Shown here piece by piece: positions 18,699 through 43,739 of a stretch of DNA of 64,000 nt. This DNA is from Mytilus galloprovincialis. Taxonomy: Eukaryota > Mollusca > Bivalvia > Mytilida > Mytilidae. The first letter of the stretch is position 1. The number at the start of each line of letters is the position of its first letter. Under the pieces are notes generated by a model, which made no database searches, had not been told where the DNA came from, and saw nothing but the letters and a program-made list of their open reading frames with translations. The stretch spans positions 60,905,078 to 60,969,077 of the forward strand of contig NC_134841.1 of the NCBI RefSeq assembly GCF_965363235.1. Direction: 5' to 3'. The translations under genes and the position numbers were made by a program.

Positions 18699-18723
18699 AT
18701 GAATTTCAAAAAAATATGTACAT
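18699..18723 (+). CDS. Gene A coding exon 1 (start of signal peptide)
   Basis: ATG plus eight codons and one base, ending at a consensus donor (ACAT|gtaagt). Phase 1 matches exon 2, and the joined codon TAC gives Tyr9. The ATG lies 76 bp behind a TATA box. A longer frame with an ATG at 19345 reads through the acceptor of exon 2 and is less likely to be the true start. Confidence 0.75.
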
Positions 18724-21700
18724 GTAAGTTTCAAAGGTAGTATAAACATTCGACATCCGCAAAATGTGATATCTTCTTATAGGAGATATGAACATGGTTT
18801 TTTTTAGTGGAGCAATAATTATATAACTGTATGAATTCAAATTGACACATTTAAAAAAAAATATTCTCAAATCTTTATTCCAAATTAATTTGATTTCACC
18901 AAAAATAATCCTCACAATTTTCTTAATATTACCTTACGATAATTGACTATAGGTAGTAATAATTGTCCCTACATTTTATTCTTTATTAAAATTGCCTTTA
19001 AAATTATCTTAGTAGTATATCACTTCGAATGTTCATCCCAAATAAAAACATTAACCTTTTCGTATTTAGTTTTATTGTTTTGTGTTTCATTTTTTAAAAT
19101 TCGACAAATAGGTTTGTAAAAAAGATAAATATTTCTATATGGATAAAATATAGGTCAAGATCAATTATACAGAAGACTTAAACGTGAAATATATGAATGC
19201 ATGACTGACAGCAGTAAAAAGACTGAGACAAAAAATAATTATCGTTATTTTGGAAGGAAATAAATCTAGCTGTCACGTATCAAATTATAATTTATATTAT
19301 ATGTTTCTTCTTATATATTTTTCTTTTACTAGATTATTTACAACATGATTTTATTTTCAGACTTTCTAATAATTTTTATTCAATTAACAATATTTGTTAA
19401 TTCTGCAAGACACGTGTGCGGGGGAAACAGTCAGCTACAAGTCATTCATGATCTTTTTGGGGAAAACCCACATTCCAATAATGGACAGAAACTTGAACAT
19501 ACATTAAATACGTGTAGGAAAAAAGCCGGGTACTTAGAAATACATGCAAAGCAGCTTTTGAATAAATATGTAAGTTCATATTTATATATTGATATGTAAT
19601 TATAATAACTTGATTACTATTTTTTATAATGGAAACATATATATATATATATATATACAACTCGTCTAAACATCAACCCAACAATGTTAGATCTGTAAAT
19701 TTGCTTTCGCAAATTTTTGGTTCTTCCCTCGCCGGGATTCGAACCCATGCTACTGTGATATCGTGACACCAAATCGCCTGCACTGCAGCCGTCCCGCTAG
19801 ACCACACGACCACCTGGGCTCTCATCTATATATATATATAAGACAGACGTTTTCTAGCAGTATGTCATCTGCCCGCATTTTTTTCAGTAAATTGCAATAT
19901 CAATTGTGTGTTCTTGATGTTCTTAGTGGATTTTTTTCTCATGCAGTTTTTTATTCTATAAAATGATCTTGATCTTCATATGATTTTTCTTATACATAGA
20001 AAGTGCTATATTCATATTTGATTCATAATCCGAATCAAAATTAGAAAGTCCCTTTAAATAAACTTTCACATGAGTTTTATTACCATATAAACTTTATAAC
20101 AACCGGGAATCGAACCCGAATAATTCAGTTGTTACATCCCGCTGATCTACGATTTCTACATTGACGTCTGAATGCATAGACAATGAATAATCTTCAATCA
20201 ATCATTCGGATTTAGCTCTGGGTTTACCTATTTAAATAAAAGTGGGCTGATTGCTGATCGGTCACCTCTTTTAGAGAGCACCAACCAAAATCCTGGATTC
20301 ATGAAGAGTTGTTAGCGTGTTAGGAATTCCGGTCCAGCCAAGTAGGAAAGGTCGATAACGGGGAAGGACTGAATTATTCGGGTTTCCAGGAATCCAAATT
20401 TACGTACTAGTGCAGTCTTGAAAATACATCATAAATGAAACGGCTATTTCTGTGAATCTGTATATTGCTAAATAAGCTCACCTTAGATATCAAGGCAAAA
20501 CAGATGTACGCTAGATTTTGTTTTCAAATATGTAAGATGCAACGCACGCGCTAGTGAATTAATTATAGTCTTAAACGGTCATTTTGAAGTTATCATATTC
20601 TTAAAACTCTTAACAAATAAATCATTCAGTCATGTTCAGTTTGTCATTCATTTTTTAAGACTTATCCTCTGTGGTAACGTTGGCACTGTTTAGACAATTC
20701 ACTTGCTGGCAATTCAGTACTTTTTAGTAATATGTTTATTTTAACAGGAGGTAAATAGCTATCTCTGAACAGTCTGAAAAAAGCTTGAACCGATGTTTAT
20801 CGACATTAAGCGAATTATCTTAACAGTAATAAATTAAGCGTAGTAGATAAGTCTGAAAATATACTTCAAAACTGAAAATGACAATATCATTTATTGTTAA
20901 GTGATTGAAGAGCTGATCAGATCAAAATGACCGTTTCAGATTAAAATTGGTGTACTAGATCATTAAACACGATATCATAGAATCATTAAGCAAATGAAAC
21001 ATATATATTACATGAAAGTTTGAATACATGGCGCATATTTGTGTTAATTGAACCAAGGAGGTTATATTAAAAGGAGAGTGAACACTCTGCTTGATACAAA
21101 ATTAGCATCCCCAGGATAGCTGTTCGATCAGAGAAAAATTATAAAATTATAAAGAAACCGACATGTTTATCACCCACTTGACATGGCTCTTTGATGTACC
21201 GGGCTGTTACCGCGAGCAGTTCAGGGTGTTAGATAAATCGCATATGTCACGTGATTGTTATCAGTGACTGGGACATTAAAGTTCAGGTGTATTTTTAGTA
21301 ACAGTGCAGTGCATAGGTGTTTATGATTTGGAAAAAGATTTGACGCGCAATTTCAAAATCAACCGTCTGTCTACGGTGAAAAAAGATAAAGAAATGACAA
21401 AGTTATGAGGGTTTAAAGGAAAGTTAATGAGCGATTTTTATTCAACACTACATTGCTTTAAACAAAGATTTTCGCTTCACCTGTCAATTTCTGTTGATGA
21501 GAATTGGCAGGTAATAATCATAGAAAATATACGAATATGCAAAGCACTTTAGTTACGGTGACCGGTAACGACCGGAAGGAATATTTACAATTGAAACATA
21601 AAGAAATTTATCGGGAACAACGTAAAAGTGACTTTCTGTTATGACTGTTGATATTAACATTGACGGCAATGAGACGGATATTAGTTTTTATTTCTATTGG

Positions 21701-24700
21701 TAATAAGTTTACTTTTAGCATAAACTTTTAATTTTTAATTACTTAATAAAAAATATCACAAAAAATCTGATTAACATTTCAATAATTGTATATCCGGTCA
21801 GTTTATGACACCTCGGGTGTTTCCGTTCTTACTCGGGTATGTAATTAGGACAAAATCTCCCTCTGTGACAGAGTCGATCTCAACTAATTAACACCCACTT
21901 ACAGAAAAGTCGGTAACATTTTATGTGTAATTATCGTCTTTCGTCATCTCTCCTTCTAATATAACCTCCTTGATTGAACTCAGGACATGTCATTATCTGA
22001 GACTAAATATTCGAACAGTGGCTAAAAACTATCTTGCTGTATTATACTTTCACTGAAATGTCGATCTTTAAACATATTGATATTGATGAACAGACGTTGT
22101 AGTCTTTCCAGGAGGCAGGTGAGGTTTTGAACACAACACATGGTCCGTCATCTGGTGTTACTCTAATTAAAAAGAATTAGTGATTTTTTTATGTACCCAA
22201 AATATTCTACTCGCAAACCATTTGTGACTGGTAACGGTTATACCGTGTTTCAGTTCAGTTCAGTAGTATTTCAGAAATTTTTAAATGTATGAAATGTATA
22301 TTTTATATAAATAGGAAAGAATTATATCAACATTTTATCAAGAGGTAAGATAGCGTGAATGCTTAACGTAATTTGTTCACTGCTTTTAAGTAGCTAATTG
22401 ACTTAATCGCCATTCAGTTTCATCGGTTGAAGATGTCGTTCATTTCATATATATTGGGTTACATCGGAGATGGTAAAAACAAATCTTTTTTTTCTAAATC
22501 AATGTCTCTACCCTTAACCAGTTTTTAAATTTGATCCAGAAATCCAATTATTCCCTCATTTAATATCAAAATCGTAAAACTGAAAGGCAAATAAAAATAA
22601 GACTTTTGGTGGTCAAGATAATTAAGCGATATTTCGTTTGTAATTAACGAATTGAAGTTCTAAACTTATTTTGATTGGACGGTTTCTTAATCTTTTACAA
22701 TCTGTGGTGTATGACTTTGATTAACAATATTTTTAACCAATCTAATATCTTTTCTGAACAGAAGATGTAGCGGTCTTTAAACAGACCCTGAATATCTAAT
22801 TCTTTGATTTTAATCTGGTTAGATACAACGAATATTGGACACTAGTATGTCTAACAATCATATCAAATATTGAGTTTGATATATAACTCTTAACAATATA
22901 TCTATATAAAAATAAACAAGTACAATGAGTTAAAACTTAACTTAATACTAACTATAGAAACTAAACAATCTGGACTAGATCTTATTTTAGTCCTCTAAGT
23001 ATTGTTATTATGATTATGATGTATTATGATTATTGAAACAATCTGTTAATCTGACCATGTGTTTCTCTGCACTGACATTCCTTATCTGAATAATGTTAAT
23101 TAAAAGTTTCCTTTCTCAATCATGAAAGTACAATCATTAAAGAGGCTTTCGAAATGAATAAACGTTTATAAGATGACGGAGAAGCTTCTTGGTATACATA
23201 CGCTAAAAATATAACAGGGGCTTGAGAAGCAGATCCTGCATTGCCTGAAACTGTAAAAATGATAAGGATCTGATACAACTGAGAAATAACTGAAAAGTAT
23301 TATAAAAATTATAGTAGTTATTATCTAATAATCTGACTACTATAAAGCGTGAAACCTTAATTGCAGAAATTACAATGAATGGATACATAGATAAATGATG
23401 ATGAATGAAAGTGGTATATTATTTATAAAACAAAAATAAAATAAAAAGGCTGAAGTATTTTTTTGATATGATCATGAATATTCGAAAGAACCGATAAGTT
23501 ATTTCAGGTGACAATGACAAAAAAAAAATATTAATAAAGACACTGAATTCATCTGCATCTCACCAAGAATTAGAACTGTTTTTCCTTCATAGAACAATCA
23601 TAAGAACTGTTACTATGAAGTTCTATTGAAATATATATGTTTCTAGTTTACCATAATGCTTATTTTGTACTGTGTATGACCATCTTTTGATGTGCATTAA
23701 ATTATATGTGTGTATTCTAAGTGTATGCTATGTGAGGATCTTTGTCTTCAGAAATAAAGATGTGTAATCAGGAGCGCAGGAGTCAATGGTGATAGTGGAC
23801 CTATTACGTCAACCACGTTCAACAGTTCGGCGGGAAAATATTTTTGTCCAATACCATTTTTTTAACAAAAATATGTTTAAACTGACAGCTGTGATTGACT
23901 AACTTCTAGACAATAATGCAAAAAAATATCTTTTCGAAATTAACCACCACCACAACCACAATCTTTTTAGTCTACTACTTTTCCTCAGTGTATAATCCTC
24001 CTGTCCTAAATATTGAACTTTTACAATTTTTACTGATATTGTATTAATGCATTTTAGAGACAGTCAAGAATAATAATGAATAGTCAACGTATTTTATCAG
24101 CCGTTGCTCCTGACTGCATGAATTCTATAAGCACAGAACAACTAGAGAATGCTATATGGACAGAGGTATGGAGCTAAGCAATAACATTTTTATATTCGTG
24201 TGACGCACAGTTCGTAATTCTATTATACTATTTCTGTGAACTCGTAAATTAATTTTATATCTACGTTGTTATTTTGAGGTAAACATTTCGAAATGTACTT
24301 TTATATAATTCATCTATGAATTTCTCTGTCCTGAGTGTTCTTGGATTTACTTGTACTGTATTGTATTCCTGTCATGTCATGTTGTAATTTTAGCGGTATT
24401 TTCAGTTTTGCCATTTTTTTCTTAAAATGTCCTGTACCATGTCAGAAATATGGTAGTTGTTATCAAGTAGTTCGTTTCTATGTATGTTGCATTGGCGTTT
24501 TATTTTGTTCTTCAGTGTCTCTGTTGTTCCGTTGTTTTCCTCTCATGGTTTTTAAATGTCCTGTACCGAGTCAAAAATATGGCAGTTGTGATCAAGTAAT
24601 AGGTTTCTATGTATGTTGCATTGGCATGAGGGTTTTTTTTTGCGCTTGTTCCGTTGTTTTCCTCTTATAGTTTATGTGTTTCCCTCGGTTTTAGTTTGTA

Positions 24701-27700
24701 ACCTTGATTTTTCTCTCTCATACGATGTATGACTTATGAACAGCGGTATACTACTGTTGCCTTTATTTTTCAGAAATTCAAATATTTATAACTTTTAAAA
24801 CAGGTTTTCCCTTTTGATTCGTGTGTTTTATTAACAATTTTTTTTTCTCAAGAAAATGGAAGTTGACTCTATAAACAACACCGGCGTTAAAAATTAGGAT
24901 GTGATATTCCGTTTTAAATAAGACATCTACAATATACAGCCTTCTTTACTAATGTTAGCTACATGAAAGAATTTTGTAAAGGTTTAAATCAATTTGCTGT
25001 AACTAAATTACGTAGAATTCCTTTAGCAGAAGCATACGTCGTTTCACGTTAGTATAACAATATAACAAAATGCTAGTTACAACTGTGCATATCTCAAAAT
25101 ATATTTTAACATTTTACCTATTATGACTGACTGTTTTGCTCACAAATTGTTTTCAATATATTGGAATTTTGTGCAACTGTCATACTAGTTAGAGGTTTAG
25201 ATAGGTATAAAAACCAGGTTGAATCCACCATTTTCTATATAAGGAAATGCCAGAACCAAGTCAGACATATAACAATTGTTTCCCATTCATTTGATATATT
25301 TGAGCGTTTGATATTTCCATACGATAACAGACTATTCAGTTTGAATTTAACTTGTAGTTTGGTATTTTTGCTTTTTTAATTTTGGTTACGTTTCTGTTTT
25401 TGTTTAGTTCCCAAGATATGATAGTGTTAAACTAAAGACACACAAGAACTATACCATTAGCAAAAATTAATACATATTGTAGTATGACATTTAACCATGA
25501 ATGGTTTATGTTAGTATGGTCCAATGAAAACATCAAATAAAGGCGGACGTATTCCTTAAAATTAAAAAATATTAAGATTTAAATACTTAAATAATTAAAA
25601 AGAATTTTAATGTGCGTATTGTTATGCGTTTACTTTTCTACATTGGTTAGAGGTATAGGGGGAGGGTTGAGATCTCACAAACATGTTTAACCCCGCCGCA
25701 TTTTTGCGCCTGTCCCAAGTCAGGAGCCTCTGGCCTTTGTTAGTCTTGTATTATTTTAATTTTAGTTTCTTGTGTACAATTTGGAAATTAGTATGGCGTT
25801 CATTATCACTGTACTAGTATATATTTGTTTAGGGGCCAGCTGAGGGACGCCTCCGGGTGCGGGAATTTCTCGCTACATTGAAGACCTGTTGGTGATCCTC
25901 TGCTGTTGTTTTTTATTTGGTCGGGTTGTTGACACATTCCCCATTTCCTTTCTCAATTTTATTGTATATATATTTTGCTATTCGGTCTCTTCAATATAAC
26001 ATTATAAAATAACTGTTTTCTCCTACACTTTCTGAAAAGGAGTAACAGTATTTATATCCATGTGTTGTGGGGTTACCGGTTTATGTTAAATGTATATAAG
26101 TCATCAATTGATATTCCCTGCAAAAACTCACTGGTAAAACCAAAACCATTGAGCGAGAATCAACTAGTAAAGTTCAGTACCCAAAAATTGCTTCTTCACA
26201 TATAACCATGAATATTTTTTTCTATTTTTCGGTCTTTTTCATAAAATAAATTTCTGCTCCTTCCTATATAAGGGTAATTTTAAAGGATATTGGTTTTTTG
26301 TCACCCACTGTTCAAATTTATTGAGTATTCAAAACGTTTGTTCTAGAATATTACATAGAAAATACTTGTTTCTTTTTTCAAATAAGATTAACTATTATGA
26401 AACTAAGGTTTCAAGTCCCTCAGGCAAAGTTGGCGTTAGATGAGTTTGGCTATTTATTTTAGGTATTTTTGACATATAGCCCTTCAACGAATTTCGGTTC
26501 TTATACTTCTTCGGATTTCAAATATTTGGCTTTGAGCGTTCCTGATGAAGGTAAATCAAGAAAAACGCTTCGGACGCAATAAATTATTACACGTGTTGTT
26601 CTCCATTTTTGTGTATCTATTTTGAAAAAAATCATTTTTCTTTTCAAGCTAACTAAAAATCTCAAAGGGATCTCTTAAATAGAAGTAACAATATTTGTAA
26701 TACTGCCTAAAAAACAAAAGTAAACATCAAAGGTTTGTGGTGTATTTTATCTACGTCCGACTTTCAAAGGAAGGCATTAACTTTTAATTTCATTTGGAGT
26801 ACGTCATATATATGAAAATGTACTATAGCGTCCTAAATGAAAATGTACTAAAGAGTCATATATGCAAACGAACTAAAGCGTCCTATATGAAAATGCAGAA
26901 CAGTCATTTCAAAGATCTTTTTTAAGATTTTTTTTCGACAAAATACCAGTCCTTTTCAAGATATAATGATCAGAACATTATCACACTTACATGGATTCAA
27001 AAATGTATGTCTAATTCGATTTGGTTTTTATAGGCTTTGATCTATCTAGACGTTAGAACATACTCATCCGTTCTTATCCTCGGGTTTTAAATATTCATAA
27101 AAACATGACCAAGTATTACCCAACCTTTTTAAAGTTTCGCTTTGAAATTGTTACAAGTTTTGTTATCCCATGACTTTGTATAGCTTACGAACTGGTCTGA
27201 GATTTATTCATTGTTAAAGGATGTACGGTAACATGTAGTTGTTTATACCAATGTCCTTTGGTCTTTTAATAGACATATGCTCCATTAGCATATCTCCGTA
27301 TTTTGAAATACGTATTGTTTTGAAAATGATGACGCTTTTCAGGTCCTTAATTACTATTCGAACGGAATTGTTAGTAAATACAAGAAAAACGTATGCCAAT
27401 TATGATATTTAAAATTATGAAAAAGGAAATAATCAGGACATCATGCAAAAAAAGCATTCTTTTCAATAGATTTTAAAAGTTGTATATTCTCTATTAAATC
27501 TTTTTTTTCTAAAACTTGTTTTCCTTTTTTATTCATCACAAAATATTGTAAACTTCTTGGTCTTTCCATCCATTACTCATAAAAAAAAACATCGTCTTTT
27601 CCTGTAAATCTTAATGAAATAGAATGTCATAGTTATTTTTGAAAGACCAAGCGTCACAAATAGTGACGTATCTAAAACATTATTTATATTATACTTTATT

Positions 27701-28580
27701 CAAGCTAAACCACAAAATATTATCTATAAATAATAACAAAAAGGGGATTTTTTTTGTTGTTCTGGATGGTTACATTTAACCATTTAATATTTACAATTTT
27801 TGTAACTACTTTGATCTGAGAGTCACTGATGAGTCTTATGTATACTAAACGTGCGTCTGGCGTATTAAGTAATAAGCCAGTATCCCTTTTCACAAAAAAT
27901 CTTAAGTGTAAAATTAATCTTACGATAAAAATATTTAGTTGAATTGATAAGGAATATTTTAGACTTAAGATAAATTTTACACTTAAGATTTTTTGTGAAA
28001 AGGGCCACATTTTTTTTCTTCAAATTTTTACATACTAGTACACCAAATTCGGAAAGAAAAGTACAACCTGTTCGAAAATACTATTGACCTTATTCACAAA
28101 GGAAGAAAATGTGGATGGATCAATGAGATATAAATATAAGATATATAAAAGCAATGAAAAAATAATTCAATAAACATCAACACTTTATATTCTAAGGTTC
28201 TTAATGTACATTTATTATATTTGCCTTTAATCTATTTTCTTAATTTTTAGACTGGAGCGTTGTTGCGTGAGCAGTTTATTATTTTTACAGAGATTATTGC
28301 AATTCTAACAACAATGGAGGATGAAGAATACAGTAATGAGAACACATATGAGTTATACCATGATTTAAGAACATTGCGATCCGATTCACAGCAATTATTA
28401 TGCGAAATTTACATAGCAATTGACCTATCAGGAAGTCCAGTTCCTGATCGTGAACTTTCTGCTTCTGTACCCCTGTGTATTGCTACAGGACGTTTAGATA
28501 GATACGAAAGGGACTATTTCCTTATCAATAGAATTAAGCGTATATCGAAGTTGTTGCAGAACCAATATATTGAACTATAA
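18699..28580 (+). CDS. Gene A: putative secreted class-I helical cytokine (LIF/CNTF/CT-1-like), 4 coding exons
   Basis: Coding exons 18699..18723, 19361..19569, 24058..24165 and 28251..28580 join into one open frame of 223 residues; intron phases are 1, 0, 0. Residues 1-24 form a signal peptide (MNFKKI start, hydrophobic core 9-21, cleavage likely after NSA). The mature protein has no other membrane segment and has Cys at 28, 60, 98, 165 and 190. Likely helices: about 52-78 (contains HAKQLLNKY, close to helix A of cardiotrophin-1, YAEQLLQEY as I recall it), 116-136, 146-171 and 195-221. Signature CEIYIAIDLSGSPVPDR spans 165-181. Gene B downstream is a paralog with the same exon layout and all five cysteines. 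Seen: splice sites, frame, signal peptide, paralogy. Inferred: four-helix cytokine fold and receptor signalling of the JAK/STAT type; no search or structure model was run. It could instead be an unrelated small secreted helical protein. Confidence 0.8.
19361..19569 (+). CDS. Gene A coding exon 2 (signal core, CGGN motif, helix A)
   Basis: Acceptor ttttattttcag, donor TAT|gtaagt. It encodes the hydrophobic core of the signal peptide, the RHVCGGNSQLQV block just after the cleavage site, the second cysteine in NTCRKKAG, and the first long amphipathic helix. Gene B exon 2 aligns along its whole length. Confidence 0.82.
19661..19825 (-). mobile_element. tRNA-derived SINE
   Basis: On the minus strand an A box (TGGTCTAGCGGGAC, 19791..19804) and a B box (GGTTCGAATCC, 19735..19745) form a tRNA-like head. 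A body containing TAACATTGTTGGGTTGATGT follows and ends in a TA tail. Lies in intron 2 of gene A. Not a working tRNA gene: the head lacks a clean cloverleaf. Confidence 0.65.
20095..20160 (-). repeat. tRNA-like sequence, probably SINE remnant
   Basis: The minus strand contains a B box GGTTCGATTCC (20106..20116) and a poor A box about 30 bp upstream. The 15-mer CCCGAATAATTCAGT recurs in inverse at about 20368..20382. Confidence 0.4.
21054..21972. mobile_element. 919 bp non-autonomous DNA transposon with TIRs and 7 bp TSD
   Basis: Terminal inverted repeats of about 25 bp begin CAAGGAGGTTATATTA and match with one difference. ATTGAAC directly flanks both ends (21047..21053 and 21973..21979). No long frame inside. 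Lies in intron 2 of gene A. Superfamily not assigned. Confidence 0.75.
21980..24057. other. Gene A intron 2, 3' half
   Basis: AT-rich; no exon-like frame or known repeat between the 919 bp transposon and exon 3. Confidence 0.5.
24058..24165 (+). CDS. Gene A coding exon 3 (inter-helix loop)
   Basis: 36 codons, phase 0 on both sides, acceptor gcattttag and donor GAG|gtatgg. It carries the third cysteine in APDCMNSI, matching YPRCMNFI in gene B exon 3. The match, the equal phases and the near-equal length (36 against 35 codons) are the evidence; the exon is too short to stand on its own. Confidence 0.75.
24320..24785 (+). repeat. Mussel repeat (CTGTACCAAGTCAG family) with internal duplication
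   Basis: Two partial units, from about 24427 and 24550, share ATGTCCTGTACC, ATATGG.AGTTG and TTTCTATGTATGTTGCATTG. It ends with GAACAGCGGTATACTACTGT. Confidence 0.7.
25632..25975 (-). repeat. Mussel repeat (GGGGAATGTGTCAAAG family), near full length
   Basis: Minus-strand copy ending in GTCGGGTTGTTGACACATTCCCC, which lacks a few bases of the usual sequence. In intron 3 of gene A. Other copies: 12205..12285 (-), 15432..15712 (+), 41395..41570 (+), 43220..43365 (-), 45215..45275 (+) and 57603..57875 (+). Confidence 0.75.
26803..26905 (+). repeat. Degenerate tandem repeat, about 26 bp x 4
   Basis: Units begin GTCATATATATGAAAATGTA or GTCCTAAATGAAAATGTACT. In intron 3 of gene A. Confidence 0.55.
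27884..28004. repeat. Inverted repeat, 39 bp arms
   Basis: CCCTTTTCACAAAAAATCTT at the left pairs with AAGATTTTTTGTGAAAAGGG at the right, 38 of 39 bases over the arms, with a 42 bp loop. It lies about 250 bp before exon 4 of gene A. Confidence 0.7.
28251..28580 (+). CDS. Gene A coding exon 4 (remaining helices, stop)
   Basis: Acceptor cttaatttttag, then 109 codons and a TAA stop. It holds FIIFTEIIAIL (second helix), LLCEIYIAIDLSGS (third), PLC and RDYFLINRIKRIS (fourth). Putting the last three helices in one terminal exon is the layout I recall for LIF, CT-1 and CLCF1. Confidence 0.85.
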   Translation, partial: TGALLREQFIIFTEIIAILTTMEDEEYSNENTYELYHDLRTLRSDSQQLLCEIYIAIDLSGSPVPDRELSASVPLCIATGRLDRYERDYFLINRIKRISKLLQNQYIEL

Positions 28581-28771
28581 GTTATCAAATTGCTTCAAAA
28601 GTATCAATGTCTGCATTCTTACCTTTAAAAAATGTAATGGGAGAAATTTCGTTTTTTTAAAAGATTTATCAAAGAAGTGGAGTTTTTTTGGGATCTAATA
28701 TAATGTGAAAAAAAAACAATAATATAACAATACCTACATGTAAATTTGATTTCAAAAGTTAACGTTTAGGT

Positions 28772-29387: not shown

Positions 29388-29395
29388 GCTAACAG

Positions 29396-29752
29396 TTTAT
29401 TCATTGTATAATGAGTATTCACTATGTTTCATTGTATAATGTGTCTTCACTATGTTTCATTGTATGATGTGTATTCATTGTGTTTCATTGTATGATGTGT
29501 ATTCATTATGTTTCATTGTATGATGTGTATTCATTATGTTGTATGATGTGTATTCATTATGTTTCATTGTATGATGTGTATTCATTATGTTGTATGATGT
29601 GTATTCATTATGTTTCATTGTATGATGTGTATTCATTATGTTGTATGATGTGTATTCATTATGTTTCATTGTATGATGTGTGTTCATTATGTTGTATTAT
29701 GTGTTTTCATTATGTTTCATTGTATGATGTGTATTCATTATGTTTCATAGTC
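29396..29752 (+). repeat. Minisatellite, alternating 28 and 23 bp units
   Basis: Units of TTCATTGTATGATGTGTATT followed by CATTATGT, and a shorter form lacking TTCAT, alternate to give a 51 bp higher-order period. It begins 10 bp past the poly(A) signal of gene A. Frames on both strands here are repeat-derived. Confidence 0.85.
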
Positions 29753-32379
29753 CAAATTCTAGTCTTGACATTTATAACAATTAACATTTTTTCTTATTTA
29801 TATTTTAGAATACTTGCAACGTGATCATCTTTCCTAGTCTTTATACGTGATATATTTTTATATTAAACTTTTTATGAATATTCTATAGTCTTCATTTGAG
29901 TATTAATATCTACACTGTCAAAAAGTATATTATTTGGGAATCCGAAATACCAATAGTGAAAACATGGATTTTTTGGAAAGTATACATAGAATTTTTTATA
30001 TCTGATGTATTGCAAATCTCAATTACTTTGTTACTAATAAGAAACCGTCTGTATTCTTGATAAGAGCCATGTCGATTAAAAAAATCAATTGTCGGGACTT
30101 CTAAAAAAAGGTTCACACAGAACAATATAAAAGTTTATCCATTTGTATAGCTCATACAAATAAATCTTATATTTTCCTTCAGGTCTAAATACATTGTTTG
30201 TATATCTAGATCTTTGACAGAGACACTAAGCCAGCTGCTAGATTTTGTCATTGTTATTTTTTCAAGATCTGTTGGCTCCTCGGATATCCGTCATCTTTGT
30301 AGAAAAAAAAAACATCTGTTCAGAAAACAATGTAGAATTATAGAAAACCAAAAGACTTGTCTGGTAAATAATTACATTAAATGTATGTTTCGTTATAATA
30401 CACTATTTTGTTTGGCTAACAGCAATCTCGCGTCATTCGGAAATTAACATTCATTGCACAATGAAATGTTAAATCCATGATGACACAATAAAGTGCACAG
30501 CTAACTATAGTGCCTAACAAGATTTTGTGAGGTAGACGAAATTGACTTTAAAACGATCGTATTGACTTTTGATGTCCAGAAATAGGCAGATCGAACATAT
30601 TTTGACTTATTTACTGACTTTTTAAGTTTGGGATTAATTGTAATTAACACTTTCCAATGAGACTGAAAAATGCTTTTTTTTGTTATGATAAATAATAATT
30701 TTACCTGCCGTAGTCGTGCGTAAAATATATTTCGGCATTTCTCTTAAGAAATGACTTGTTTAATGGAACAAAACGTCTTATTTGTAAACTTTCTCTTTTA
30801 TCTACACAATAGGCTTTTAAAAAATAATCTTTCAACTGTGTATTCAGAAAATTTTGTGAAAATAGAAGAAGTGGCAATTCTTACCTTTCATACCTTAACT
30901 TTCATTGATAAAACATAATATTGACTCGTCCAGTGTCCAGTTTGAAGGTAATTTTCGTTACCGTACACATTCATGCACGTTCTAATTAATCAATAGTCAT
31001 GTATGAAAGGCATAAACAAGTTTGAAGGTAAACTAATAACAACTTAATCCAATCAAATTGCCTACGATTCAATAACAATGACCAGTCCACATCATAAAAA
31101 TGTATAGGGGTAAACTGGGTAGGGAGAAAATGTCAGATATTTTAAGTTCATTATTTTGCAACAACGAATAAAAATTTATTAACCAATAGATTTGCTATAA
31201 TTTCATAAACATGTCATTCTGTATTGGTATAGTTTTTGGATCTTTTATTTGCGTATTTAAGGCTGTAAAAAGTTTGGCCTTCAAAAGTCAACATAATCAT
31301 TGACTTTATACAGAAAATTCGCCTTTTTAAAACATTGTATGTATCACGAATAATACGCGACAACAAAGTAAAATCATTTCTTAAAACACTGCAAAAAAAA
31401 TCATTCTGATTGATCCAGTGGTATTGTCATAAATTGCGCTGGAGTGAACAGTGGTACAGCAAACGTCGAATTCCCTCACACAATGTTATCACACACTATA
31501 GTAAACAATGTAATTATAAGTATTGAATTCTTTTTCTAAAAATTTATAGTGTTTTAAAAAGCTTTGACCGTGTGCACATTTATAGAATTAAACACCTCCC
31601 GTGCTTCATATAAAATGTACTTCGGTCAACACTATTACACTTCAATGAATTTACAAAAAGAAGCGTTAAATTCTTAAATGAGGAACATAAGTTTAATCAT
31701 TAACAATGTATAAGGGTTTATAATGACATTTACCTATCGACACTTCTGTCTTTTTATTGGTGTTTTTATCTACCTTATTTCGTAAAGAAATGGTGGTTTT
31801 AGGTTTTTTTTTAAAGATCTTTCCAATGAAATGTACAGCCCAAGGATAAAAAAGAAAGTTATTAATTTATGTTACTGAATACTACAAAAAAAATACCGTA
31901 AAACGCATTAAGCATTTCATTTACACTTTAATAAACGTGTTCTTAGTTAAAAGAAGAAATTTTATTTATTAATAAGCTGCATTTAAATCTTCATATTTAT
32001 TTTACTATCTTTCAATCACAAATAAATCTCAATTTACTAAAATTTAATCTTTTGGATCAAAGGTAATGTTACCGAAAAAAACACATTTTGACGTTTAAAT
32101 ATTTTGATCTTTTTAATGTTATCACTTCAAGCTTATTCAATAGAAGGGTTGACACTAGTTGTTGGAGCTATTATTTCTAATCAAGATACAATTTTATAAA
32201 GAGTATATAGTATATTTAGGATGACTTTCTAAACAATTTGAATAGCGGTATACTACGTATACTGTTGCCTTTATGTATTATTGTAAAAAGTTGTATATAC
32301 AATTCAAGTACCCTAGAGTTTTAGAAACTAGTGCATAAATCAATGGACCTTGTACTTTTAACGATTTTTCATGTAAAAA
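29753..32379. other. Intergenic, nothing recognised
   Basis: Only a GCGGTATACTACGTATACTG repeat fragment at about 32240 and AT-rich DNA. A 77-codon frame at 30214..30447 lacks recognisable motifs. Confidence 0.5.
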
Positions 32380-34329: not shown

Positions 34330-34500
34330 CTTTTGTTTTTTAATTCATGGAAATTGCTGTGAGAACTATTTAAAATCATCAAAGATAATGTTTTATCTTC
34401 AACAACTACGTATACCGAGCATTTAGAACACAATGATGAGAACATATTTAAGTTATTCCACCATTTAAGAAATATAGTTTTTCCACATTTCAAACGCAAG
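34330..34500 (+). pseudogene. Decayed copy of gene A-type exon 4 (third paralog remnant)
   Basis: The stretch 34433..34473 matches the gene A exon 4 stretch that reads NENTYELYHDLRTL: 31 of 41 bases agree without gaps, on the same strand. The matching frame here reads DENIFKLFHHLRNI and is preceded by ATCAAAGATAATG, whose TAA is in that frame; it soon meets another stop. No other exon of a third gene was found nearby, though a weak resemblance continues to about 34660. Best read as the remnant of a third family member between A and B. Confidence 0.5.
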
Positions 34501-35187
34501 CCTTCGATCTCTATTGTTTTTTAATTGTGTTTCATATACTATAACATGTTGTGAGTTTTAACAGTATTAATGAACATTGTAAAGTCCTAGATTACGTCGA
34601 AAATTTGCCCCTGTCATCAGGTATGCGGAGTATTCGATTCCTTCATCGTACGTTTTTTTGTTATACAATTAACTTTTGGAATATGGCATAACAAGTTGCC
34701 GAATATACTAGACTGACCGTAGGTAAAATTGAACCGTTTATGCAGCGAATATATCACCCCGCTCTACCACGATTAAGATTCGCCGAAGAACTTGTTGTCA
34801 ACCAGCTGTAGCATTGACGAATATAACAGCACTACAGAATTTAAAATAAACGAGTTCTTACAATCTCAAGTTGTTTTTTTAAAACTCACATATTGGATAG
34901 ATTTTTAAGTTGTTTGAGAGAAAAATGAATTATCTAGTATACCTCGTACACACTATGCCTTTAAAATCCGGGTTTGACCAGAATTTGTGAATCCGGGTTA
35001 AACTAAGCCAGTGTGAACGCCTTAACCCAAGGTGAATCCGGGTAACGAAATTTGTGGTTTAAAGAGAAGAGGAGAATTTAGCTCATAATATATATATTAG
35101 GATTGAAAGAAAGATACAACAGGAGCTTGACTCATCCACTCAGAATACCCATATAATGTTGGACTACCAAATTGGAACCTATTTTTT

Positions 35188-35213
35188 GCATGAACCCCCT
35201 GAGGGGTTCATGC
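35188..35213. repeat. Short perfect hairpin
   Basis: GCATGAACCCC and GGGGTTCATGC around a four-base loop. Function unknown; no neighbouring gene seen. Confidence 0.6.
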
Positions 35214-35764
35214 TTATATATTGGCGAGTTTTGGATGTGTCTATGGGCCACTCGAGGCTCTCGGCCGGAAGTCAGAATAAAATTCTAGGAACGTCTCGAA
35301 AGTTTTCGGTCATTTATAAAGGTCTTAACAGGTTGTTATCTACGTCTTTGATATGGTCCCTTGATGGCCCTTGACGACGCAATTATATTTGTTTTCAAAC
35401 GACCACTGTACATTGTGTGTATCTGGGTCAATTATAACGTGGTATTGTATGTTGTCTCTAATTATGTTTGAAGATTTAACCACGGGATACTGACCGATAC
35501 TGAGTGTGTATTTCATCCTAGACTTACGGGAGAGAAGATTCTGGTTAAAATATTAATATTAGATCGGAAAACAGAAAGATAATATTCTTATCAAAAGTAT
35601 TCAATTCAATCGGAATCAAAGAAAAATATACAAAATATATACTGTATTTATGTTTCTGAAGAAACTATAACAATGATTGAAATCAGAATATTTTCAGAGT
35701 TGCAATTAAGAAATAAGTATTTTATATTACAAGATACTCTGCTTTGATATTTTTAAATATTCAT

Positions 35765-35923
35765 TGGCTGATCCAGGGGGTGGGGTTGGGTCCGGGGGTT
35801 GGAACCCCCCTATTTTTTGACCGATCAATGCATTTGAATGGGGACATAAAAAAAATGGACCCCCCTTTTGTCATGGGTTGGGGACCCCCCCCCTTTTTTT
35901 TTAAATGGCTGGATCCGCCACTG
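35765..35923. mobile_element. 159 bp hAT-type MITE with 8 bp TSD
   Basis: Left end TGGCTGATCCAG, right end CTGGATCCGCCACTG, flanked by ATATTCAT on both sides (35757..35764 and 35924..35931). GATCCAG termini with G/C runs are a widespread MITE type in molluscs; an 8 bp TSD fits hAT. Confidence 0.75.
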
Positions 35924-35931
35924 ATATTCAT

Positions 35932-38254
35932 TTGTAAAGAAAACATCAAAAATAAATCTAAACAAATTCTTGCATCCTACAAAAAAAATGTTTATAAACA
36001 ATAATCATTACGTTAATTATTTCATACCATTTTAGTATTTAGGTTTTATGAGTAATTATTATTTATTTTTTGTATTGTAATATATCCATAAAACGGAAAG
36101 TACGATAAATTTAGTAAATATTTAAATTTTAAACGGTCGTGAATAAAAATACTTGTGTGTTTTCAATTCATAAAGCATGATTTTAAATCCTTGCAACTCA
36201 CAACAACCGTAAAAATAATTTACAATAATCACAACAAAATTTAATTACAACCATAATGTTGATTATTTTATACCGTTTAAGTATGGGTTTAGAAGTCTTT
36301 GCTTATATTTTGTAAAGTAGATTCATTCGATAAATAAATTGTCCATCCGTAAATACTTGACGTTCGTGTTTATTGATATTATATATATTCAAAAGAATTT
36401 GAAAAAACTAACAGGAACGTTAGTTTTTTATAAAATTTAAATTCAATTTTTCGGTTTGTTTGTTTTAATAGTTTAAGCGTATAGCATCTACATATTTGTA
36501 CTATATGGTACGGTTTTGAAAATTGTATTCATTGTGTTGACCAACTATCCTACATCTCTTGATTCATTCACATTATAGATCACATTTCAAAAGCACACTA
36601 TCGGTTTGCGATCTCAAATATTCCGGATAAAATGTCAATGAATCCGGAGTCAAAACATTTAATGTAGGCCGTTTGACAATCCAATTCAACTATTAGATTA
36701 AGAAATGTGATGATGCAAATGCGTATTCTTTCCCTTAGTATCAGTGAGATGCTTTCTATTTACTATTTCGTGCGCTAAGATACTACTTGCATGCAATACT
36801 ATTAAATTCACTCGTGAAAGCTTATTTTCGTTTTTGTTATCTAAATTCAGGACACGGAAGAAAGAGCTTCACATATGACTTTCAAGCACGGTCATCATTT
36901 CTAACGATATTCTGACCTCGAGTTGTTTCTCTTTTGTTTCTTTTTTGAGTCACTGTCCTATTATAAACTTTGACCTTTTCGAAAAGCTAAGGATTGTCAA
37001 CCCAAGGAATAGATTTCTTAACTTTGTAATGTATTTAGCCTTTTAACTTTTTTCATTCGAGCGTCACTGGTGCTTTTTTTTTTTGTATCTACTGAACTCG
37101 TGTCTGGCGTACATCATTTCAATTCTAGTATCTTTTTATATCTACATACCTTTTTATATAAATTGGTTATTTTGAAAGTGTGTACAGGTGTTCATAAACT
37201 TCTGAATTAAGAAATTCTTCGGCAAAACTAAGTTTCCCTGTAGAATGTTTGAATTGATTTAAGTAAAATCGGGAAATCCTTAAAATTTGAGATGTTTTAT
37301 GAGACCAAAATCAGTCTCTTCATAAGAGGTCCAAATCAATTGCATGCCACAGGTTTCACCGCATACAACATCTACCATGAGTAAACTTGAGACAGCTTCA
37401 AATACGAGTTAAGAATATAAAGGCATTCATGTAGGAAACAAAATATAAAGATATGATAGATAAAATAAATGCATCCAGAATTCCACATTATAAAGCAAAC
37501 TGAGTAGGTTTGTGCAATTTGCATAAGTCATCCGGTTAGTAGAAATTAGGATTTGCCAAAGGGTTATAATCGGAAAAATTATGTACATTCCCAAGTAATA
37601 AATAAAATAGTCGAGCTTTAAAATAACTATTCAAATAGAAGCTGTAAATATATACTTTCAACTGGCTTCTTATATTCACAGTCAATTATTTCAATTCAAA
37701 AGCAAACACAAATTCAGCAACAATCTTTTGGTGACCCGGCAGTCAGCGGTCTTAGGTTCATGTATTGCTTTTCTTTTTTTAAAAAGAAAGCAACTTGTTT
37801 TACCTATTAACATGTCTTATACTTTTTTTTCTAATATGCATGGTAATTAAATTAATTCAACTTACGTGTGTGTACCCAATTGTTCGTATTTTGACAATTT
37901 TTTTCAACTTCGTTTATGTAAGAAACATACATCAGTTTCCATCTTGTGTTTATTCTGTAGATGTAACCCGGACTCAATTGCAATAAACGGTTTCACAAAT
38001 CTAATTTCAAATTCATTAGGAATCATCGCAAATGGACCAACCAAGATTATGTAACGAGTTTCAAACATGCTTAATTTTTACTGCATGGTTTTTTCACACT
38101 TTAAAGAACAATTTGACAATATTCCATGCTTCATGCCTTTTTTAAACAAATGATTGCTTGAGATAAGTTACAATTACTCATTATAAAAGTTTTCGGAAAT
38201 GTTTTCGTAAATATTACGTAAGAAAACATAAATATATTAATTTGTTGATCATTG
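35932..38254. other. Intergenic, nothing but a repeat fragment
   Basis: CGTCTGGCG-family fragment at 36990..37130. Frames near 37795..38054 are short and AT-driven. Confidence 0.5.
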
Positions 38255-38754
38255 TTGTAGGCCGTACGGTGACCTATTATAATTGTTTATATTTATGTCA
38301 TTTGGTCTCTTGTGGAGAGTTGTATCATTGGCAATCATACCTCGTTTTCTTTTTTATATATCTATAAGATTTCTGTTGCGTTTTAATTTTGCAAAATGGG
38401 TGGCAATTTGGGTACTGGGAGGTTAACAAGTGGCTGATGTAAATTTGCTCCGATGTTGTCAGGTGTGCGTGGGGAAAATCCAGATTTTGAACAATGCAAA
38501 TGTAATGCTAACATTGTAAACAAGTACAATGGACAGATTTTGGGTTACAATTTTGGCACTTAATTACATTTCTATTTTTTTAGATAGCGAAAACCCCAAA
38601 ATCGGTAATTTCTTCGAATCAACTACATGTACCTGCGGAGTAGATTACATAGTGCTAACACGGTATATTGGGGAAGGTTGAGCACTCATACATGTCTAAC
38701 ATGATGGTCACATTTTAAGTGTCTTTTTCAAGTCATACGCCTGCAATAGTTATC

Positions 38755-39095
38755 AAAGGTACCAGGATTATAATTTAGTACGCCAGATGAGCGTTTCGTC
38801 TACATAAGACTCATCAGTGACGCTCATATCGAAATATCTATAAAGCCAAACAAGTAAAAAGTTGAAGAGCATTGGGGATCTAAAATTCCAAAATCTATGC
38901 CTGGAATAGCAAAATCCTTAGTTTTTCGAAAAATTAAAGTAAAAAGTAAAATCACAAAAATATTGAACTCCGTGGAAAATTCAATCGGAGGGTCCCTAAT
39001 CACATGGCAAAATCAAACGAAAAAACACACCAAACGAATGAACAATAACTGTCATATTCCTGACTTGGTACAGGCATTTTCAAATGTTTTCTTAA
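38755..39095 (-). repeat. Composite mussel repeat
   Basis: GATGAGCGTTTCGTCTACAT block followed by ATTGAACTCCGTGGAAAATT and CTGACTTGGTACAGGCATTT; the same two modules as at 32.4 kb in another arrangement. A related CCAAGGTAAATTCAAAACAG block is at 16270..16440. Confidence 0.6.
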
Positions 39096-39305
39096 TTCAG
39101 TGTTTGCTATAGTTGTTTCTGTTTGATTTTTTCATAAATCAGGTTGTTGGGCTGATATTTCTTATTTTATCGTGTTTACCCTTTTATAGTTTCTTTTTGG
39201 TCCTATGCACTTCAAAACCGTATTTAGTTATTATGTGTTTTGTGCACGGCGACCTGTAGTCTGATTCTGATATAAATTGTCTAATTGACAATCATACCGT
39301 CATTT

Positions 39306-40570
39306 TTTTGGAAGTCCAAAAGTATCAAACGTTAAAGAGAAATAATTGTTTGAAAAAATCAAAGAAGGGTGTAAAAAATCATTATGTAATTTTTATCTCG
39401 AAGAGATATTAATTTATCTATCGAAATAATGTCAAAACTCAGGTAACACACGAACAGTCTAGAAGGAAGATATCTTGTTCTGTCAAGGACACTTAATAAC
39501 ATCAAAAGTATAATAACAATACGTCATTGTGCAGGTTAATCAGTTTATATCATCACTGAAAAGTGTGAATATGATTATGTTATGAAAATGTATAACAAAA
39601 GTATATAATTATCATCATTGCATATGGTTTTTATAGGTAGGTGAATTAATCTTATTTTATGACACAAATGTTGCAGGCAGAATAGAAAGGAAATGTTCTG
39701 GACTTTAACGGCTCTTAATCAAAGATGTTCATAATGGGTGGTATGGTATGGACACGAAAATAAAGACTAGAAAGAAAGGAAGGAAACAGAACTAGTTTAA
39801 AAAGCATCGAAACGTAAATTACAATAGATTTTCTTGCATTAAGTTCAGTTACTGAATTAATTCTCAATTGTATAGAGATCATCATGGCTCTATAACAGAT
39901 CGTTGCATTAGTTATTATTGAACGCTCTTGTTTCAATTTTGTTATTCTTCAGTTGTTAAAAATAAACTTAACAAACTTATTTACAAATGTTAATAAAAGA
40001 TGTGACATATGAGCACTGATTTTACTAATCGTATAAAAGACCTGCTAAATTGGATTTTAAAGTTTTTTTTATTTGTTTGCTTTGACAAAGAAATGAAAAG
40101 ATATAACCGTATTGCACTGTCGCGTAATGAACCCCCAAAAAACCTTTAACCATGTGTTTTATTACCGTTATTTTTAGCACTGACTCAATAACAATAAAAA
40201 AAAATTGGTAATGGTTGTACTTTTAACACTCCCATTAATGTTTCAGTGGTGGTTCTTGCGATGTTTAACACATATCGTAGATAATTATATCCTTGTACTT
40301 TTTAATCAATTACGAAACGGGTCGCAATTACCTGCCGCAACTTATTGATCGATAAATGTAGCTAATAAATGTAGCAAAATGACACTGTTCATTGAGGCTA
40401 AACTTTTATTGGTTCATTTTTACGATGTGGCAATTTTTCTTCCTTTTGAATTAACCACTCATAAAAAGTGCATCAAAATACACCCTTAGGTTTCTGATTT
40501 ATTTTTACATCTGCTAAACTCCCTTATAATTTTTATCGTAGTAAAATAAATCTAACAATCAATTGAATTG
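39306..40570. other. Upstream region of gene B
   Basis: AT-rich; nothing recognised until the promoter sites at 40571. Confidence 0.5.
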
Positions 40571-40616
40571 TTACGCAAAACATTTGGGAATTTTTCAATC
40601 TTAATAACACTATATA
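40571..40616 (+). promoter_or_regulatory. Gene B core promoter: C/EBP-like, kappaB-like and TATA sites
   Basis: GTTACGCAAA around 40570..40579 differs by one base from the C/EBP consensus RTTRCGYAAY. GGGAATTTTTC (40586..40596) resembles a Rel site. TATATA follows at 40611..40616, 71 bp before the ATG; the spacing in gene A is 76 bp. C/EBP plus kappaB next to a TATA box recalls vertebrate IL-6-type promoters. Read by eye; the surrounding DNA is AT-rich and TATA-like strings are frequent. Confidence 0.4.
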
Positions 40617-40681
40617 CCTATAATAACTATATGTTTATTGCATCATTTATTTTACCATTTATGACGAACAACGTTCTAAAT

Positions 40682-40718
40682 ATGACTTTCACAAAGAGAG
40701 GATACTTACTGTCCATAT
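40682..40718 (+). CDS. Gene B coding exon 1 (start of signal peptide)
   Basis: ATG plus 11 codons and one base, ending at CATAT|gtaagt. The joined codon is TAT (Tyr13). A second donor-like site at 40998 (ATG|gtaagt) would give the wrong phase and was not used. Confidence 0.7.
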
Positions 40719-43700
40719 GTAAGTCACCTATAATGATTAGTATTTTCAAAATAGTTGAATTTGAATTTGTGCTTTCAAATATATCGTCCCGTTCGGTTTT
40801 TATCTAATTAACTGATTTCATTGGCAAATGCAGCTACATTTTAGTAAAGGATTCTTAAACAATTGTTTTTGGCATATGGTATGTTTCATCAAATAGATCC
40901 AGCCGCGACTGTGTATTTCTTTATTATAAATGATATATTTTTACAAAGTGTTATTAAAGTTCTAGAGTCTTGTGAATATTCCATGAGGCATCTAATGGTA
41001 AGTCTAACATAATAGATAACGTAACAGACTGTGGCATCGACGTAGTGGTACAGTGGTACAGTGGTAATATTAACGGTGCCAACTCTCCTGTATCAGATAC
41101 GCATTTTAACAATTGATGTCTCTTCCTTGGTGCCCGAGGGCCAAAATTAAATGCGTCATTTAACTTCTCTATTTTGTAGATATAGTACTTTTTCAGATGG
41201 TAATCGCCACTGCGAACCGACATGTTTGTGGTGGCAACAGTCATTTGCAGGTATCAATGCCATCGGAACCATTCCAGCCGATAGATGACGATGATCGTCT
41301 ACGTGTTGTGATAACAAACTGTAAAAAGAAAGCTGGGACAATTAATTCACTTACTACCGACCTCCTTGAAATGTTTATGGTAAGTATATCTAATAAAATT
41401 GAGAATGGAAATGGGGAATGTGTCAAAGAGACAACAACCCGACCAAATAAAAAACAACAGCAGAGGGTCACCAACAGGTCTTCAATGTAGCGAGAAATTC
41501 CCGCACCCGGAGGCGTCCTTCAGCTGGCCCCTAAACAAATATATACTAGTCCAGTGATAATGAACGTATGCCATTAAATTAGTTCTAATCCTGTTTCGTA
41601 AACTAAATGTATATTTGAGGGATAACACACCATCTTTTTAATCTAACAAGGCCATCATTCACCATATCTATTGATTAATAAATAACTTTTTTAAATTTCA
41701 ATCCGAAAGCATAACATAAAAAAATCGAATTCATGATGACGAGAATGTTTGTGTGTTTTAAAAGACATTACACAAGATATTGTATAACTACACTGCTGTT
41801 TAAAAATCTACATGGAAGTACAGTGGCTTATTATATTAAAGTTTAATAAGCCAAGATTCTTATAGCCCTAGGATTAGTACTTTGGGCTTGCTGTCAGAAA
41901 CTATACGAATTTTGTTTGACTGGTACCTAATTTCTATGCTTATTTTATGTTTTCACATCTACCAAATGTATATGTATGTTCGGTTTTTTTTTTTGCAATG
42001 GCTTCTCAATTGTACTTGTACTTTTTATCCTAGGAAAGAAGAATTCATGTATTGTATGGTCTACAGCATTTAAGAAATTATCCTCGTTGCATGAATTTTA
42101 TTCAAGTCGACAGTCTAGATTATAGAGACTCATTGTCCGTAAGTATGGCCGTTTGTTATTGCGTATATTTAAGTTTTATGTATCGATTCTTAATGCATGG
42201 ACTTTAATATTTCGGATTTAAAAATTATAAAAGATAATTTGAATTAATCATCTTCTATTTTTAAATATTCCTTCAACTCGTGAAAATGCGTGAAAAAAAG
42301 AGAAAAAAAAAAAACAACGTGTAAGATCAATATGTTTTGAAAATGGAAAAACGACCATAGTATATTGCCTACAGAAACAACTGTTCTTGTGTTGAAAGAA
42401 ACAATTAAAAATAACGCAGATTTAGTTCAGATTGATGGCTTCGAAAGAGAAGATTTAAATAAATTTCCGAGAATATCATATATTGAACTCAAACTTATAG
42501 GCAGAATTTTTATCAAAACTATTCAATGATACTCCGTTTGAATAATTCTCATGATTTAAACTAATATTTAACCTGGCGTTAGTTCTACTTTAATCAGCAG
42601 CAGCTGATGATGTTTTTGCACGGGGTGGGAAGGGGAGAATCGAAATATACCCTGCATTTGGTCCGTGTCTGCCCCTCAACAGAGAAAATTGTAAAACAAA
42701 AGTTTCTTGTTCTCGTTATTTTCTATGTTACGGTCATCATGTCGACAAAAACAAAGTGTTCAAAATTTAGAATTGCATATCCTAAGGGAAAACTGTTTCA
42801 GTGCAGATTTTTTTCAAGAAATGAATGGGACATAGAGTGCATTATTGACAATGTTGGGTTTTTGCGAGAAAGTGAATATGCCTTATGATCGTCATTGACC
42901 AATTCATGAGTAACCTTATTTTCATATCGTAAAATAATTATCATATGCACAAAGAGGTGGTTATAGATTAGTTTAAACAATATTTTATTCAAAAAGTGCA
43001 TAAATTATAATTATACAATATAAAATACAGGGATTCGGAAACAAGAAAAACTTATATAAATCCGTCTCCCGTGGTTATAGATTGAAATAATTTTAGGAGA
43101 ATAAAAGAGTAAGCAAAAAAAGGCAACAACAAAAAAAAAAAAGAAAAAAAAAATGCTATCTGAGAGGTATTTGATTAAAAAAATAAAATTTCTATTATGA
43201 ACATTAAATAGTGTCGGTTAAAAAAAATCTTACTTGGACGCCTTCGGTGCGGGAGTTTCTCGCTGCATTGAAGACCTATTGGTGACCTTCTGCTGTTGCC
43301 TGTTCTATGGTCGTTGTCTCTTTGACACATTCCTCATTTCTATTCTCAATTTTATTGTACTAATTTTAACTCAAATATGAACTTATTTCAGATACACGAG
43401 AAATTAAATAACCATTTTCACATAATGACTGAAATGATCTCCGTACTCCAACGTATTGAGGTAGATGAAAAAATACATCGTAGTACATCAGCCATTGCAG
43501 GAAAGATTGAAGAAATGTTTAAACCCTTTGGTGTATTAATTTGTGAAGTCTATACCGCCATTGGCTTAACCGGAAGTGACGTTCCTGACAGAACGATGCC
43601 ACTGAGTCCTGCTATTCTTTGTTCTGTGAATTCTAGAATATCAAGACACCTTCGTGATTATATTTTACTTGATCGGATGAGAATTACGTCTGCTTTTTTA

Positions 43701-43739
43701 CAAAATGAGTATGAACATCTGCTACAACAGATTCCATAA
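40682..43739 (+). CDS. Gene B: putative secreted class-I helical cytokine, paralog of gene A
   Basis: Coding exons 40682..40718, 41180..41379, 42034..42138 and 43392..43739 join into a 229-residue frame with intron phases 1, 0, 0, as in gene A. Residues 1-24 are a signal peptide (MTFTKR start, core 9-22, cleavage after ATA). Cys at 29, 60, 98, 165 and 191 match those of gene A nearly one for one. Shared blocks are RHVCGGNS.LQV, N.CKKKAG, P.CMN.I, TE.I, CEVYTAIGLTGSDVPDR and RDYILLDRMR. Identity outside these blocks is low, so the duplication is old. Introns are much shorter than in A (461, 654 and 1253 bp). The class-I cytokine reading rests on the signal peptide, the helix pattern, the exon layout and the regulatory sites; no homology search was possible. 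Confidence 0.8.
41180..41379 (+). CDS. Gene B coding exon 2 (signal core, CGGN motif, helix A)
   Basis: Acceptor ctattttgtag, donor ATG|gtaagt. A second AG at 41195-41196, followed by an ATG, is possible but would remove the hydrophobic core IVLFQMVIA that aligns with the gene A signal peptide. A mussel interspersed repeat begins about 15 bp after the donor. Confidence 0.78.
41395..41570 (+). repeat. GGGGAATGTGTCAAAG-family copy in gene B intron 2
   Basis: Begins AAAATTGAGAATGGAAATGG, 15 bp behind the donor of exon 2. Confidence 0.75.
42034..42138 (+). CDS. Gene B coding exon 3 (inter-helix loop)
   Basis: 35 codons, phase 0 on both sides; acceptor ctttttatcctag, donor TCC|gtaagt. Carries YPRCMNFI, the match to gene A exon 3. 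Confidence 0.78.
43220..43365 (-). repeat. GGGGAATGTGTCAAAG-family copy in gene B intron 3
   Basis: Inverse orientation to the copy in intron 2; it ends about 27 bp before the acceptor of exon 4. Confidence 0.75.
43392..43739 (+). CDS. Gene B coding exon 4 (remaining helices, stop)
   Basis: Acceptor gaacttatttcag, 115 codons and a TAA stop. Encodes three predicted helices with FHIMTEMISVL, LICEVYTAIGLTGS and RDYILLDRMRITSAFLQNEY. It is six codons longer than gene A exon 4, mainly at the C-terminus. Confidence 0.85.
   Translation: MHEKLNNHFHIMTEMISVLQRIEVDEKIHRSTSAIAGKIEEMFKPFGVLICEVYTAIGLTGSDVPDRTMPLSPAILCSVNSRISRHLRDYILLDRMRITSAFLQNEYEHLLQQIP

Follow-up and report, generated by a model that had tools for sequence, protein, structure and literature searches.

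Within the 64-kb window, by which we mean the whole stretch of DNA analysed, the forward strand carries two genes, A and B, that lie in head-to-tail order and consist of four exons each. Gene A opens with a 25-nt coding exon (18699..18723) that encodes the start of a signal peptide and ends in a phase-1 donor, GTAAGT. Its second exon (19361..19569, 209 nt) supplies the remainder of the signal peptide, an RHVCGGNS block and a first long helix, placed by the structure model at residues 49-77, and the third exon (24058..24165, 108 nt) contributes 36 codons, including that of Cys98, between helices one and two. Exon 4 (28251..28580, 330 nt) contains the CEIYIAIDLSGSPVPDR block and the stop codon and, by comparison with the model of protein B, probably encodes three more helices. 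Gene B follows the same plan, with a first exon of 37 nt (40682..40718) that encodes the signal peptide start and has the same phase-1 GTAAGT donor, a second exon of 200 nt (41180..41379) with the signal peptide remainder, the RHVCGGNS block and the first helix region, a third exon of 105 nt (42034..42138) with 35 codons and again Cys98 between helices one and two, and a fourth exon of 348 nt (43392..43739) with helices modelled at low confidence, the CEVYTAIGLTGSDVPDR block and the stop codon. The products comprise 223 (A) and 229 (B) amino acids. All six introns are of the GT-AG type, with GTAAGT as donor in five and GTATGG in one, and the intron phases are 1, 0, 0 in both genes. An earlier note had described this locus, and the division into four exons, the intron phases, the cysteines and the motif blocks that it named were all present within 18699-43739. 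By its gene structure the window comes from an animal, and features of its repeats suggest a mollusc, probably a mussel.

The splice junctions of A and B were inferred from the two genes together, each paralogue supporting the other. For exon 1 of gene B, 13 phase-1 candidates in the intergenic stretch passed the donor filter, and 40682-40718 was chosen because it combines a GTAAGT donor with an in-frame extension of the hydrophobic signal peptide. Two longer starts for gene B, at 40631 and 40661, share this exon 1 donor. A and B are tandem paralogues: 75 of 225 aligned positions are identical (33%, E 1e-32), and aligned locally they score 271, against a mean of 32.2 and a top value of 62 for 2000 shuffles. 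Searching the window by tblastn with both proteins returned the known exons and revealed no third copy; the best candidate elsewhere, at 34354-34476 (E 0.044), was rejected, as it contains a stop and the conserved block does not follow in its flanks. Dispersed repeats are found at the locus, one inside intron 3 of gene A and another inside intron 2 of gene B. These repeats, and the derivation of the gene models from sequence alone, could be taken to indicate a gene-model artefact or a pair of pseudogenes. We give such an explanation almost no chance, given that the two gene models match in phases and in the order and length of their four exons, and encode proteins that are 33% identical and free of stops. 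As far as sequence can tell, A and B are real genes.

Both proteins start with a hydrophobic stretch followed by RHVCGG and, judged by eye on the spliced sequence, these N-termini bear out the signal peptides assigned to them before. The mature proteins are about 23 kDa each, and neither contains an N-glycosylation sequon. Five cysteines align between the two, at positions 28, 60, 98, 165 and 190 in A and 29, 60, 98, 165 and 191 in B, and A has one extra cysteine, C7, within its signal peptide. Upstream of gene A, a TATA-like box, TATAAATA (18623..18630, forward strand), starts 76 bases before the start codon, and a kappaB-like decamer, GGAAATTTCC (18577..18586, no strand assigned), begins 46 bases ahead of that box and 122 bases before the start codon. 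The consensus GGRRNNYYCC occurs nine times in the 64-kb window, the exact decamer twice (the second at 56442) and TATAAATA 29 times; the candidate kappaB-like site of gene A, which was found post hoc, is offered as a lead only. The kilobase before gene B contains no kappaB-like site; an AP-1-like TGACTCA lies 501 bases upstream of this gene.

We then compared both proteins with known families. In Pfam, protein B had no match up to an E-value of 10, protein A had three matches, all below the cut-offs, and exon 4 taken alone gave sub-threshold matches only. The weak helical match of A alone to DUF3843 (E 0.0019, 17.9 bits against a cut-off of 25) was rejected as chance, as were seven weak helical matches of A alone to PRMT5 among the sequences of solved structures (E 0.028-0.094). 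In the same collection (PDB), B had no match, and a two-row profile of A and B gave four, none convincing. Pattern searches yielded 18 and 213 matches in viral contigs and 142 in prokaryotic genome contigs, with no relative confirmed in either; these collections are not expected to contain animal genes. A description of the family was not found among the open-licence papers listed by the literature searches, judged by their titles and abstract openings. The earlier designation of the family as undescribed holds within these searches, which found no Pfam match above cut-off and no convincing relative. Even if the cytokine interpretation developed below is set aside, A and B define a secreted family that lacks a Pfam match above cut-off.

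Comparisons with helical cytokines were read against controls made of known family members. In global alignments, A reached z-scores of 1.3 with LIF, 0.2 with OSM, 1.0 with IL-6 and 0.6 with G-CSF, and B of 0.6, 0.1, 2.8 and 2.1, respectively, while reversed decoys for the eight pairs ranged from -0.8 to 1.5. Two of the eight pairs, B with IL-6 and B with G-CSF, thus exceeded the largest decoy and six did not. These two values fall inside the range of 1.2-3.3 obtained for known cytokines across subfamilies (LIF-IL-6 1.2, LIF-G-CSF 1.5, OSM-IL-6 2.1, OSM-G-CSF 3.3); the other two known pairs scored 4.8 (LIF-OSM) and 7.7 (IL-6-G-CSF). Alignment by hhalign of one- and two-row profiles with LIF, OSM, IL-6 and G-CSF did no better than reversed decoys, and neither did the positive control; as known cytokines were not separated from controls, this result counts neither way. 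Overall, neither Pfam nor PDB nor hhalign linked A or B significantly to a known class I cytokine, by sequence or by profile. In the PDB search, however, LIF and OSM missed each other at E <= 10, and IL-6 and G-CSF found each other only weakly (E 1.6 and 0.33), so the lack of a sequence match is weak evidence against membership.

The spacing of the cysteines was compared as well. From C60 through C98 and C165 to C190/191, the gaps are 38/67/25 in A and 38/67/26 in B. The corresponding gaps are 42/71/32 in LIF (cysteines 18-60-131-163) and 43/78/40 in OSM (6-49-127-167), using sequences identical to the PDB chains and leaving out C28/29 of A and B, cysteines 12 and 134 of LIF and cysteine 80 of OSM. 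When five cysteines were placed at random, four of them fitted the LIF gaps as closely as those of A and B in a fraction of 0.0046 of simulations; the fraction was 0.013 when the limits were relaxed and centred on the mean of LIF and OSM. We count these LIF/OSM-like gaps as suggestive, in a comparison that was chosen post hoc among several families. The cysteines of the mature IL-6 (45/51/74/84) and G-CSF (17/36/42/64/74) chains form a pattern unlike that of A and B. In LIF and OSM, one disulfide joins the N-terminus to the end of helix C and another joins the AB loop to helix D. The spacing of four cysteines in A and B would be compatible with such pairs; the last of them precedes the modelled helix D and does not fall inside it.

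Structure models were made for contiguous pieces that each fall within a single exon, namely exon 2 (A aligned with B) and exon 4 (B aligned with A). For the mature part of A encoded by exon 2, the model contains one helix of 29 residues (piece residues 25-53, corresponding to A 49-77), with a pLDDT of 87-92 from piece residue 31 onwards and of 69 for the block 21-30; the helix extends almost to the last residue of the piece, stopping at most one residue short, and may continue into exon 3. The model of exon 4 of B, which is of low confidence (mean pLDDT 58.7, residues 59-82 under 50; 38.8-47.6 on average in the other four models), places helices at exon residues 2-28, 33-56, 74-81 and 85-113. 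Its three long helices would thus span 27, 24 and 29 residues, separated by a loop of 4 residues and one of 28 that includes the short helix. Across the four modelled helices of 24-29 residues, the connections would measure at most about 38 (AB), 4 (BC) and 28 (CD) residues, where the AB value combines the models of exons 2 and 4, made separately, with the roughly 36 residues that exon 3 contributes. Long loops are described as a requirement of the up-up-down-down fold, and a short helix as part of the CD loop of IL-6 (PMC7378365). The long-short-long order of the predicted loops agrees with an up-up-down-down long-chain cytokine without proving it, the directions of the helices relative to each other not being visible in these models. 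Helical periodicity exceeded that of shuffled sequences on both scales for helix C and on one of two for helix A, and did not exceed it for helices B and D; as most control helices of known cytokines fail as well, these helical-moment tests count neither way. Of the helical-cytokine fold proposed in the earlier note, the three helices in the last exon and the fitting order of helices and loops are retained in the models, whereas a complete four-helix fold goes beyond what models of exon pieces can support.

A Foldseek search with the low-confidence exon 4 model returned 53 matches at E <= 10, none of them at E <= 0.001, and no cytokine was among the best 50 of the 53. The top match was a designed antiparallel three-helix bundle (TM 0.37), with several similar ones next among the matches listed. 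The absence of a convincing cytokine match by sequence or fold would be expected if A and B belonged to a mollusc-specific secreted helical family unrelated to class I cytokines, acting for example in haemolymph, reproduction or defence, whose four-helix appearance and phase-1 intron in the signal peptide would be convergent or due to chance. Bundles of helices have arisen many times. Phase-1 introns, for their part, are common near the signal peptides of secreted proteins, so the phase pattern 1-0-0 alone is weak evidence. Taken together, however, the loop order, the helix and exon lengths, the phases and the cysteine gaps are more specific than any one of them, and we regard an unrelated family as the main alternative, to be taken seriously, though we would not favour it.

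Instead, the most likely reading, to which we assign a probability of roughly one half, is that A and B are a pair of molluscan secreted helical cytokines resembling the long-chain class I type. The agreement of both the helix and loop order and the intron phases with long-chain class I cytokines supports this reading. In such a scenario, the signal peptide would direct the export of A and B, and the mature protein of about 23 kDa would form a bundle of four long helices, in which the AB and CD connections are long and the BC turn is short. One disulfide, C60-C165, could tie the start of helix A to the end of helix C, and a second, C98-C190/191, could tie the AB loop to the CD loop. The folded ligands might then attach to a gp130/Domeless-type receptor at its cytokine-binding region and bring receptor chains together, and this assembly would start JAK/STAT signalling. 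Gene A, finally, might be inducible through its kappaB-like site. The bundle, the disulfides, receptor binding, action through JAK/STAT and inducibility are, at this stage, inferred only.

Components of such a pathway have been reported in molluscs. According to a 2026 survey, IL-6 is reported only in vertebrates, whereas molluscs have IL6R-like receptors, JAK and STAT; the survey suggests that other ligands activate these receptors and, by its account, no IL-6-type ligand is known there (PMC13203501). Among Mytilus edulis transcripts, one report lists JAK2, three STAT and two SOCS contigs together with IL-17 and IL-16 fragments and, as far as its account goes, neither an interferon-related sequence nor a convincing interleukin or interferon receptor (PMC3308963). 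A further-reaching and more tentative proposal, which we consider less likely than not, is that the ligands missing for the molluscan IL6R/Domeless-like receptors are A and B, and that their IL-6/G-CSF-like exon layout was inherited from before the protostome-deuterostome split. If molluscs do have a class I ligand, the missing-ligand gap would close and the receptor would gain a partner that can be tested. IL-6-type genes would then date back to early bilaterians, and a long-chain class I cytokine gene with an AB-loop exon and phases 1-0-0 would not have arisen in vertebrates.

Compared with vertebrate genes, the values for which are those generally known, the layout of A and B resembles that of IL-6 and G-CSF with the last two exons fused. 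Human IL-6 has coding lengths of 19/191/114/147/168 and human G-CSF of 40/164/108/147/156, both with phases 1-0-0-0; in both genes, the second exon stops close to the end of helix A, the AB loop is encoded by exon 3, and exon 4 starts at the beginning of helix B or close to it. Shared by A and B with these two genes are the short first coding exon (25 and 37 nt), the phase-1 intron followed by phase-0 introns, an exon 3 of some 105-114 nt that separates helices A and B, the beginning of helix B in the next exon and a similar total length of the last-exon part, and in first exon and phases they match what characterizes class I cytokine genes. Unlike IL-6 and G-CSF, they encode helices C and D without an intervening intron. 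In the group of LIF, OSM, CT-1, CNTF and CLCF1, the last three helices are encoded in one exon and intron 2 lies near the end of helix A, as in the models of A and B, which carry one additional intron in the AB region. The earlier note had likened the first helix (HAKQLLNKY) to that of CT-1; we rejected CT-1 as the particular relative, as the link rested on a likeness of nine residues and the IL-6/G-CSF layout fits at least as well.

The phase pattern is not specific to the IL-6 family, as the growth hormone and erythropoietin genes also have phases 1-0-0-0 and a very short first coding exon. A and B might accordingly adopt a class I fold and still be hormone-like ligands of the growth hormone, erythropoietin or thrombopoietin type and not members of the IL-6 family. 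We judge this very unlikely, since a third exon of 105-108 nt and the length of exon 4 come nearer to IL-6 and G-CSF, and since the receptors reported in molluscs are, in the survey cited above, of the IL6R/Domeless type (PMC13203501). Five exons are described for the G-CSF gene (PMC6389648). Class II cytokine genes, in turn, are described as usually having five coding exons with all intron phases zero (PMC8863823), and teleost type I IFN genes as having four phase-0 introns (PMC4929537), whereas A and B have four exons and phases 1-0-0.

This gene structure bears on whether A and B could be class II helical cytokines of the interferon/IL-10 type, for which a bivalve precedent is on record. 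The oyster protein CgIFNLP is interferon-like and described as structurally similar to class II helical cytokines (PMC9756803), has a size of about 15 kDa and acts with a receptor reported to activate human STAT3, ISRE and GAS reporters (PMC8218723). Like A and B, CgIFNLP is a bivalve cytokine candidate, and one with a JAK/STAT link; it differs from them in its class II-like description and in its size, the mature A and B being about 23 kDa and their genes having a phase-1 first intron. We thus consider a class II assignment improbable, and return to the class I-like pair as the preferred reading. For this pair, the Upd ligands of Domeless offer a further comparison. Pfam has a model for Upd, and B gave no Pfam match and A none above cut-off. 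Drosophila Upd3 is reported to be mainly helical by circular dichroism (PMC7378365), and the likeness of the Upd proteins to A and B lies in the proposed role, that of a secreted helical ligand for a receptor of the Domeless/gp130 type.

Gene A, the first of the two four-exon genes proposed to encode helical cytokines, is flanked and interrupted by repeats. A direct repeat pair at 17278-17471 and 26416-26610, with copies 9.1 kb apart, consists of a 74 nt piece that is 95% identical and a 119 nt piece that is 85% identical. The pair represents a dispersed element, with one copy upstream of gene A and the other inside its third intron. Less than 1 kb 3' of the gene lies a tandem array (29409-29793) with a period of about 51 nt, in which the spacing alternates between 28 and 23 nt; a 118-residue open frame crosses this array and has no evident meaning. 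Also upstream of gene A, a TATA-like box and a kappaB-like decamer lie side by side at 18577-18630. A minus-strand open frame of 139 residues (14677-15096) gave nothing above the Pfam cut-off, DUF6657 being sub-threshold (E 0.0054), and is possibly an exon.

At gene B, the paralogue of A, one copy of a 68 nt repeat (41393-41460) begins 14 bases past the end of exon 2, and a second, 94% identical copy is located beyond the gene (45214-45281); this is probably a common bivalve dispersed repeat. Reverse transcriptase matches in two overlapping frames (46061-48111, minus strand; RVT_1, E 1.1e-18 and 8.6e-15) mark a broken retroelement, presumably LINE-type, with gene B on one side and a bHLH frame on the other. 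The latter, an open frame at 51272-51835 (plus strand), matches the Pfam model HLH for the helix-loop-helix domain at E 2.1e-21 and seems to resemble the PTF1A/Fer group of bHLH factors.
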